A stretch of DNA of 64,000 nucleotides from Sulfitobacter maritimus (GTDB lineage Bacteria > Pseudomonadota > Alphaproteobacteria > Rhodobacterales > Rhodobacteraceae): NCBI RefSeq assembly GCF_013346665.1, contig NZ_JABVBB010000034.1:672663-736662 (forward strand). The letters are read 5' to 3'. The translations under genes were made by a program, and so were the position numbers. This document shows, piece after piece, positions 19,125-41,799 of this stretch. The notes beneath the pieces were generated by a model, which saw only the letters and a program-made list of their open reading frames with translations, did no database searches and was not told the DNA's origin. Position 1 is the stretch's first letter. Each line of letters begins with the position of its first letter.

Positions 19125-19199
19125 GGGTGATTAGCTCAGTGGTAGAGCGCTTCGTTCACATCGAAGATGTCAGGAGTTCAAATCTCTTATCACCCACCA
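19125..19199 (+). tRNA. tRNA-Val, anticodon CAC
   Basis: A complete cloverleaf. The acceptor GGGTGAT pairs with ATCACCC, the D arm is TAGCTCAGTGGTAGAGC, the anticodon arm is CTTCG-TTCACAT-CGAAG with anticodon CAC, and the T arm is GGAGTTCAAATCTCT. The 3' CCA is encoded (19197-19199). It reads GUG codons. No poly-T terminator follows; instead the 3' half is repeated three more times downstream. Confidence 0.97.
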
Positions 19200-19533
19200 C
19201 TCCTTTTCCGTTTAGTTTGATTTGACCGGGTGTCATATTGATAGCCTGACCGACGCCCATCCGCTGCACGGCCAGTCTGGGTCAGGAGTTCACTCTCTCA
19301 TCACCAACCATTCTTCTTCCGTTTGGTCTGATTTGACCGGGTGTCATATTGAGAGCCTGACCGACGCCCGTCCGCTGCGCGGCCAGTCTGGGTCAGGAGT
19401 TCACTCTCTTATCACCCACCATCCTTCTTCCGTTTGGTTTGACTTGACCGGGTGTCATATTGATAGCCAGACCGATGCCCGTCCGCAGCGCGGTTAATCT
19501 GGGTCAGGAGTTCAATCTCTTATCACCTACCGT
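19169..19533 (+). repeat. Tandem array of tRNA-Val(CAC) 3'-half copies, period 111-112 bases
   Basis: The segment beginning GTCAGGAGTTCA, which covers the variable loop, T arm, acceptor strand and CCA of tRNA-Val, recurs at 19281, 19392 and 19503 after the genuine tRNA copy at 19169. The steps are 112, 111 and 111 bases. The spacers are also near-identical (TTGACCGGGTGTCATATTGA... in each unit). The last copy is partial and the similarity ends near 19533. All pseudo-copies have lost one base in the T-loop and lack the 5' half, so none can fold as a tRNA. The first two spacers contain CCTGACC pairing with GGTCAGG (first at 19245-19251 with 19280-19286). The third has CCAGACC, so the stem is weakened there. 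The organisation recalls the repeats after E. coli tyrT (rtT RNA). Confidence 0.9.
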
Positions 19534-19648
19534 TTTCCAACCACATGACCCGCTGAGTATCTAAGCGAGACCCGCGCATATTTCCGGTTGGAGCGCGCCT
19601 GAGATTTCTGCCATCCTGAGTAGAAAATCGCGCAACGGAAGGCATCGC

Positions 19649-40971: not shown

Positions 40972-41799
40972 TTAACGGCGGTGGCCAGATGAGACATCGG
41001 GCAAGTTGATATTTGCCACCTGCTCTGCAATCGGATCGGTGCTCAGCGGATGTTGGTCCGGCTCAAAGCGCTCTGGGTCGCGCAGCTTTTGCCAAGTGCC
41101 GCCCATATAGACCTCAAGGCCGGAAAACTTGGCTTTATATCCCATCTTGCTGCTGCCGGGGACCCAGTAGCCGAGATAGACATAGGGCAGACCGGCGGCG
41201 CGGGCGATCTCGATGTGGTCAAGGATCATGTAGTTGCCCAGACCGTTGCGCGGACGATCAGGGGTGTAAAAGGAATAGACCATGCTCACGCCGTCGCTCA
41301 GCACATCTGTCAGGCAGACCCCAACCAGTGCGTTTCGCGCTTCGGGATCGGTATATTCGATCACCCGGCTTCGGATCGGGGTCTCTTCGATCATGGCGGC
41401 AAATTCGAACACATCCATATCCGCCATGCCGCCATCTGCGTGACGGCTATCAAGGTAGGTGCGAAACAGGTCGTATTGCTCTTCTGTCGCCCAAGGGGAC
41501 GTGGCGCGGCGCTCTAGCCCTGCGTTGCGCTTTTGAATCCGACGCTGGCTCTTGCCGGGGCGAAAGGCGGCCACGTCAATCCGTGCCGAAAGACAGGCCG
41601 CGCAATCGGTGCAAGAGGGCCGGTACAGGACGTTTTGCGAGCGGCGGAACCCTTGGCTCGACAGGCTGTCGTTCAGCCGTGCGGCATTCTCGCCCTGCAA
41701 AGCGGTAAACAGCTTCCGCTCCATCCGCCCCTCAAGGTAGGGGCAGGGCTGCGGGGCTGTGACATAGAATTGCGGTGTTAAAGGCAGTGTATGTCGCAT
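40972..41799 (-). CDS. bpt: Aspartate/glutamate leucyltransferase
   Basis: An N-end rule enzyme that transfers leucine to N-terminal Asp or Glu of proteins, marking them for ClpS/ClpAP. The 275-residue protein has the family hallmarks: the N-terminal cysteine-containing [32 protein letters not shown] (Cys cluster) and [45 protein letters not shown]. The bacterial Bpt type (not the eukaryote-like arginyl Ate) is inferred from length and motif spacing. It is the last gene of a minus-strand run that includes RDD and DUF2852. Confidence 0.94.

Follow-up and report, generated by a model that had tools for sequence, protein, structure and literature searches.

Tandem units with a copied tRNA 3' end and a host-fitted hairpin behind tRNA-Val(CAC) and other genes of Sulfitobacter

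Behind the tRNA-Val(CAC) gene of a Sulfitobacter genome, the 3' half of the gene is repeated three more times. What are these repeats, and how did they come about? An earlier note, made from the sequence alone, had likened them to the repeats behind E. coli tyrT and offered two origins, namely processing of a co-transcribed array into small RNAs and recombination at an attachment site. Here, we analysed the window (the whole 64 kb stretch of DNA that contains the array) together with 62 Sulfitobacter genomes and 394 genomes of the bacterial family, the Rhodobacteraceae.

The array behind tRNA-Val(CAC)

The array consists of three units that are laid out in the window as follows.

19125..19199, plus strand: tRNA-Val(CAC), the host gene (ARAGORN; Rfam tRNA, 70 bits)
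19169..19199, plus strand: host tail, i.e., variable-loop GTC, T-arm, acceptor 3' strand and CCA; the part that is copied in each unit
19200..19244, plus strand: spacer of unit 1, 45 bases with a pyrimidine-rich start
19245..19286, plus strand: hairpin core 1, arms CCTGACC and GGTCAGG, the right arm overlapping tail copy 1 (model match G000:C28:691907-691948, window offset 672662)
19281..19310, plus strand: tail copy 1, T-loop short by one base, ends ACCA
19311..19355, plus strand: spacer of unit 2
19356..19397, plus strand: hairpin core 2 (71.4 bits with model R1, the top match of the family jointly with a core of G076)
19392..19421, plus strand: tail copy 2
19422..19466, plus strand: spacer of unit 3
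19467..19508, plus strand: hairpin core 3, partly decayed, with a CCAGACC arm and inner changes (model match, 54.5 bits)
19503..19532, plus strand: tail copy 3, the last, ends ACCG

The order within a unit is a spacer of about 45 bases, the left arm CCTGAC(C), the core and a 30-base copy of the tRNA 3' half that runs from GTC to the CCA end. Tandem Repeats Finder places the array at 19169-19531 (period 111, 3.3 copies, 89% matches, score 570), as the stronger of the two arrays it finds in the 64 kb and far beyond chance. The repetition reported in the earlier note is real: the GTCAGGAGTTCA motif occurs at 19169, 19281, 19392 and 19503, positions that bear out the claimed steps of 112, 111 and 111 bases and the coordinates given for them. 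The described one-base deletion is likewise present, as a 6-base T-loop in all three copies. The length of 30 bases holds for the copies but not for the gene's own tail, which has 31, and the CCA end holds for the first two copies (the first reads CAACCA) but not for the third, which ends CCG. The CCTGACC/GGTCAGG hairpin is found in units 1 and 2 as described, and the disruption of the third stem consists of one mismatch, in the arm CCAGACC. The core inside the arms is conserved too, with three pattern matches at no more than three mismatches versus none in 100 shuffles.

A 91-aa open frame at 19222-19497 runs through the array. We rejected it as coding, because the frame stays open across the array as a consequence of a period that is a multiple of three (111 = 3 x 37). 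No Rfam family was found over the array, so a known RNA family was rejected as well, and the RtT covariance model (RF00391) had no match in 19200-19560 up to E 1. The tRNA gene is preceded by a lon-like gene and followed by a histidine-phosphatase-like gene, both named from a reading of the open reading frames only. Elsewhere in the window, a 26-base tandem repeat in two copies (81% matches) lies at 41561-41612.

Units of the same kind at six host genes

When the window's own genome was searched with the array, a single match was returned. A covariance model built from 17 distinct cores gave 78 matches in 28 of the 62 Sulfitobacter genomes (a count in which stricter filters may miss weak matches), which rules out a one-off local duplication. 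Inspection of the surroundings of matches in all 28 genomes led us to judge three of the 78 as chance (two in rRNA spacers of G070 and one partial match in G024). The hosts are tRNA-Val(CAC), Val(TAC), Ala(GGC), Thr(GGT) and Met(CAT); a further host is a superoxide dismutase gene, with the units behind its stop codon. The exceptions are one copy in G015 that has no tRNA gene and copies in G077 and G076 that lie beside tRNA fragments. The window's own genome has units in three places, with three at Val(CAC), one at Ala(GGC) and at least three at Thr(GGT), the last in a minus-strand array of period 116 (C31:87000-91500) in which a run of Ns masks part of a unit. The dismutase matched the Fe-type model with 209.5 bits in G267 and 222.5 bits in G077, below the equivalog cut-off of 348, and was named by eye from the same C-terminal sequence in G063, G007 and G076. 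Similar arrays do exist behind tRNA-Val in relatives, so the lack of any in close relatives, which the earlier note had named as counter-evidence, did not arise. At the Val(CAC) site, the core starts 47 or 48 bases past the CCA in the six genomes that keep a tail copy and 43 bases past it in a tail-less relic of G030.

The units extend beyond the genus. A second covariance model, made from 74 matches and run on the 394 family genomes (about one per genus), matched 18 of them at E <= 0.01, the window's genome included. The matches are convincing in five further genera, where the hosts are Val CAC and TAC (G150), Met and Thr (G320), Val TAC (G458), Val TAC with two units (G130) and the dismutase (G267). 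The weak matches of the other 12 genomes have no tRNA gene or repeated tail within 300 bases upstream and were judged to be chance. An exact scan of contigs returned ten stretches, four of them true and from Sulfitobacter; the six in unrelated bacteria had no tRNA gene within 1.5 kb and were also put down to chance. Searches of open-licence papers brought up no description of such arrays in Alphaproteobacteria, nor of the fitted arm described below. Among chosen cores, the mean edit distance is 6.0 when the site is shared but not the genome, 6.6 when the genome is shared but not the site, and 8.1 otherwise, so that the cores appear to cluster in a mixed manner by site and by genome.

Some loci deserve mention in their own right. 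In G015, the tRNA-Val(CAC) at the usual place (1501-1574 of the locus) looks decayed, and the hairpin unit sits on another contig than the tRNA-Val, with a tail that occurs nowhere else in that genome. The array on contig C42 of G077 follows a tRNA-Val piece that starts at the anticodon loop and the array on contig C2 of G076 follows one that starts in the T-arm, each as if an island had split the gene. Several relatives have other hairpin-rich sequence directly past the CCA of tRNA-Ala, for example AGCCTTTTGCAAAGCAAAAGGCG followed by a CTTCG..CGAAG stem, which by eye is like rRNA-spacer sequence.

The left arm is fitted to the host gene

At most sites, the left arm of the hairpin is complementary to the host's own sequence. 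In 38 of 46 genome-sites, all three bases outside GAC are complementary to positions 4-6 of the host tail; the count is 42 if one skipped host base is allowed, which adds the four Sulfitobacter dismutase sites. When the hosts were shuffled 10,000 times, full complementarity was seen at 8.8 sites on average and at 20 at most. The 46 rows were hand-picked for a readable arm; because they are mutually related, this figure is no probability. Decayed copies such as that of G005 and the hostless copy of G015 were left out of these rows, and G070 (beside the similar G013) and the Val(TAC) sites of G003 and G071 were among those not entered. We therefore consider the arm to be tuned to each host. Exceptions are the Ala units of G004 and G024, with two of the three bases complementary, and the Met units of G474 and G010, with none. 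The arm of these Met units is the Ala one, as if they had moved from Ala to Met, and the Met unit of G474 is duplicated despite this arm. The tails of the hosts have little in common past the initial GT and no simple site rule was found; a target set by exact sequence was therefore rejected.

The core is paired, with conserved mismatches

Across 54 distinct cores, 89.8% of the cells are paired and 10 of the 16 pairs show changes on both sides. Changes on both sides outnumber those on one side by 117 cells to 8, in an alignment that leans to structure; an ungapped MAFFT alignment of 17 cores gave 33 and 2, respectively. None of 500 shuffles reached the observed number of paired cells, of double changes or the covariation score, whereas 68 of the 500 reached the number of pair types. 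Over the 16 modelled pairs, Watson-Crick pairs number 752 and other combinations 69, and wobble pairs are few on either strand (11 top, 18 bottom), which we take as a sign that the core probably pairs at the level of DNA.

The bottom strand is the better folder in 47 of the 54 cores with DNA energies and in 49 with RNA energies. Since the bias is equal under RNA energies, it names a strand and not a molecule. Some mismatches are themselves conserved, namely C.A at columns 14/30 (51 of the 54 cores), C.T at 12/32 (43) and G.G at 8/35 (40), and the C.A mismatch becomes a G.T wobble on the bottom strand. These mismatches point to recognition of a folded core rather than of a mere palindrome. In energy, seven of eight single hairpin strands are unexceptional against shuffles (z -0.45 to -1.78), and only that of the dismutase hairpin is clearly exceptional among the eight (z -3.2).

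Whole units are present or absent

The tRNA-Ala site keeps an intact tail copy in 13 of 60 genomes, and here the difference between an occupied genome and its empty relatives amounts to one whole unit. The 120 bases past the last tail copy of G024 match those right behind the CCA of the empty G003 and G009 at 112 of 120 positions each, and those of G026 match the empty G071 equally well (112/120). The match is weaker for G030, whose flank follows that of the empty G063 from base 25 on, and weaker still for G000; for G013, G029, G070, G072 and G073 there was no clear empty relative among the best matches. The flank of G060 matches G022, which holds a relic, and relics about 48 bases past the CCA occur in several other genomes, such as G022 and G023 at Ala. 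As clean loss by recombination between the direct tail repeats would give the same empty sites, these fit loss as well as gain. In G001, G004 and G474, the spacer within the unit resembles the native Ala flank of empty relatives; this suggests that these units may have been born on the spot rather than have arrived.

In 11 of 19 arrays, the divergence of the last tail copy exceeds the mean of the other copies; in two it is lower and in six equal (p 0.011; hand-chosen arrays that exclude superoxide dismutase). Decay at the array edge accounts for this equally as well as a direction of growth.

RtT repeats of Enterobacterales have the same build

The parallel with tyrT that the earlier note had drawn stood up: RtT repeats of E. 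coli, Klebsiella and Salmonella share the part order and have an arm complementary to the tRNA tail that they carry. The tyrV repeats of E. coli K-12 (period 178) read tail AATCCTTCCCCCACCACCA, spacer, GGGGAAGGAT, a core of about 90 bases and the tail again, and the arm is the reverse complement of the tail. Units behind tRNA-Pro of Salmonella and E. coli have the arm GAGGAT versus the tail ATCCTC, units behind tRNA-Arg of K. aerogenes have GGGAGGAT versus ATCCTCCC in two of three, and an Arsenophonus unit behind tRNA-Lys has GTACAGGAT versus ATCCTGTAC. Counting the first five arm bases, which the search pattern fixed, the match spans 9-10 bases in 10 of 12 Tyr units (the arm is broken in the other two), six in all three Pro units, eight in two of three Arg units and nine in the sole Arsenophonus Lys unit; for the 10 tRNA-Lys units from E. 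coli and Klebsiella, the match does not go beyond the five required bases. The complementarity can be read in the outer stem of the RtT model.

Whole units also come and go in this group. The lys operon region of K-12 has five RtT matches. Comparison of K-12 (780300-782200), KE47 and RHB23 shows that some have and others lack a unit of 98-100 bases in each of three tRNA-Lys spacers, with otherwise nearly identical flanks. The empty spacers are lysT-valT in RHB23, lysW-valZ in KE47 and lysZ-lysQ in both.

In short, the units of both families stand behind a tRNA gene, often in tandem, and combine a copy of its 3' end with a spacer, a folded core rich in GC and a left arm that is complementary to this tail. 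The RtT core, however, is unrelated to that of Sulfitobacter and mostly longer (the alpha model R2 scored the E. coli repeats at 6.9 bits at most), and the RtT tail begins in the T-loop whereas the Sulfitobacter tail begins in the variable loop. The better folder is the top strand in all 27 distinct RtT hairpins, unlike the Sulfitobacter units with their preference for the bottom strand (47/54), and this opposite preference counts against one shared mechanism. Passages of PMC4986893 report RtT as an RNA that is released from tyrT and other tRNA operons, and passages of that paper and of PMC2965389 already note that several tRNA operons have RtT units and that RtT-like elements lie near protein genes.

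Comparison with integrons and other elements

Like integron cassettes, the Sulfitobacter units form a direct array, end in an imperfect hairpin whose outer arm matches the start of the unit, conserve structure above sequence and fold better on the bottom strand, which in attC sites is the strand that is recombined, according to a passage of PMC8946536. The part of PMC3053210 that describes attC gives core sites of RYYYAAC and GTTRRRY and a length of 57-141 bp. The hairpin of the units has about 40-50 bases (42 model positions and a few arm bases), the host tails start with GTC or GTG in all 46 rows and never with GTT, and the cargo is the tail of a gene instead of a gene. A standard integron was rejected, as no IntI integrase exceeded the TIGR02249 cut-off in any of the 62 genomes; weaker tyrosine-recombinase matches occurred in all 62 and in all 14 control genomes.

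REP and BIME elements are short repeated hairpins at gene ends. The Sulfitobacter units differ in that they carry the tail of the host gene and are tuned to it. A RAYT (Y1) transposase as partner was rejected, because Y1_Tnp genes (E <= 1e-5) are rarer in genomes with cores (3 of 28) than in those without (10 of 34).

How the units may arise

We tentatively propose that the 111-base cassettes of tail, spacer and hairpin may move and multiply as folded single-stranded DNA, which a putative recombinase would join to the 3' end of a gene. This is plausible, though we hold it short of probable. What it sets out to explain is observed: the part order, the tuning of the arm at tRNA and superoxide dismutase genes, the paired and covarying core and the presence or absence of whole units. 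An incoming unit would enter at GTC, where the tail begins, and would supply the gene with a new tail and displace the old one downstream; the hairpin would be the site that is read by the enzyme, which would act in trans. The best reading, by analogy, is that the cassette works like an integron cassette and yet is no integron. Its spread agrees with this, over six host genes, 28 of the 62 genomes and five further genera, with the tRNA-less copy of G015. Against it stand the search of the 62 genomes, in which no integron integrase exceeded the cut-off and no enzyme was tied to the units, the top-strand bias of RtT and an alpha strand bias that is the same with RNA energies, the duplicated Met unit of G474 with its Ala-like arm, the spacers like local flank in G001, G004 and G474, and the ordinary energies of seven of the eight hairpin strands.

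The serious rival is duplication borne by replication, without a dedicated enzyme. Template switching at a hairpin would copy the tail both inverted, as the arm, and directly, as the tail copy, and arrays would then expand, contract and decay through slippage and unequal crossing-over. Repeats of about 30 bases, such as the tail copies, are good substrates for slippage. The local-flank spacers just named speak for such an origin, as do the last copy being more diverged than the rest in 11 of the 13 informative arrays (19 tested), as expected at an array edge, the several arrays that stop inside the core hairpin (G001, G060, G013, G077, G072 and G320) and the emergence of the same build from unrelated cores in Enterobacterales. 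However, homologous cores occur at six host genes and in six genera, so the core must have been carried from site to site, and the conserved C.A mismatch points to recognition of the folded core. We consider this explanation somewhat unlikely. The folded-DNA cassette best accounts for the tuning, the structure, the orientation and the change by whole units.

The second rival is that of the earlier note, in which one transcript spans the tRNA and the array and is cleaved at every tail copy, the hairpins serving as regulatory RNAs or as decoys of tRNA-maturation enzymes. It draws on the shared build with RtT, a reported RNA (passages of PMC4986893), on a simple scan that found no plus-strand terminator-like site from the tRNA to 19700, and on the T-loop, which lacks one base in all three copies of the window and has lost one through a different deletion in G077 (two of four copies) and G064 (both copies). 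Yet the sense strand folds better than shuffles in just one of the three window units, the core mismatches suit the bottom strand, a unit also stands behind the superoxide dismutase gene, and relics and empty sites are common. Small-RNA processing is thus not favoured, and we regard it as distinctly improbable. Recombination, the note's other suggestion, comes nearer to the evidence in that whole units are present or absent, although the search tied no enzyme to them.

The specific form of attachment-site remnants, left by integrative elements that use the 3' ends of tRNA and superoxide dismutase genes, is very improbable. Such elements keep the 3' end of the gene intact and duplicate it. The tRNA pieces beside the G077 and G076 arrays are as expected of attR ends, and apparent starts of integrase genes lie, by eye, right behind tRNA-Ala in G034 and G020. 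The units, however, are gene-free, tandem and about 111 bases in length, and attachment scars are not known to us to share a single core among six host genes while the arm is re-tuned. The array of the window had no match among phage or plasmid records, and such an origin was rejected on this ground. Among the ORFs near the array, no integrative element or integrase was seen by eye.

To return to the folded-DNA cassette, RtT of Enterobacterales is its counterpart of the same build with an unrelated core. It is conceivable, if rather doubtful, that a single process, so far unrecognised, has two unrelated versions in the Sulfitobacter and the RtT units. In this process, tiny hairpin cassettes would capture gene tails and re-tune their arm, and a recombinase that is no integron integrase would add, multiply and remove them in the form of folded DNA. 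The RtT 'small RNAs' would then be a by-product of a mobile element.

Implications

The array in the window is a member of a widespread alphaproteobacterial family that is built like the RtT repeats. Any explanation has to account for a second, unrelated family in another class of bacteria that has the same build, stands behind a protein gene as well and re-tunes its arm per host. RtT is recorded as a small RNA from tRNA operons of Gammaproteobacteria, and the finding of the second family makes the question testable in E. coli K-12, because other strains lack single units of its tRNA-Lys operon. Should the units prove to be DNA cassettes, they would in our judgement be among the smallest elements that capture host sequence, and would bear on how integron cassettes are born.
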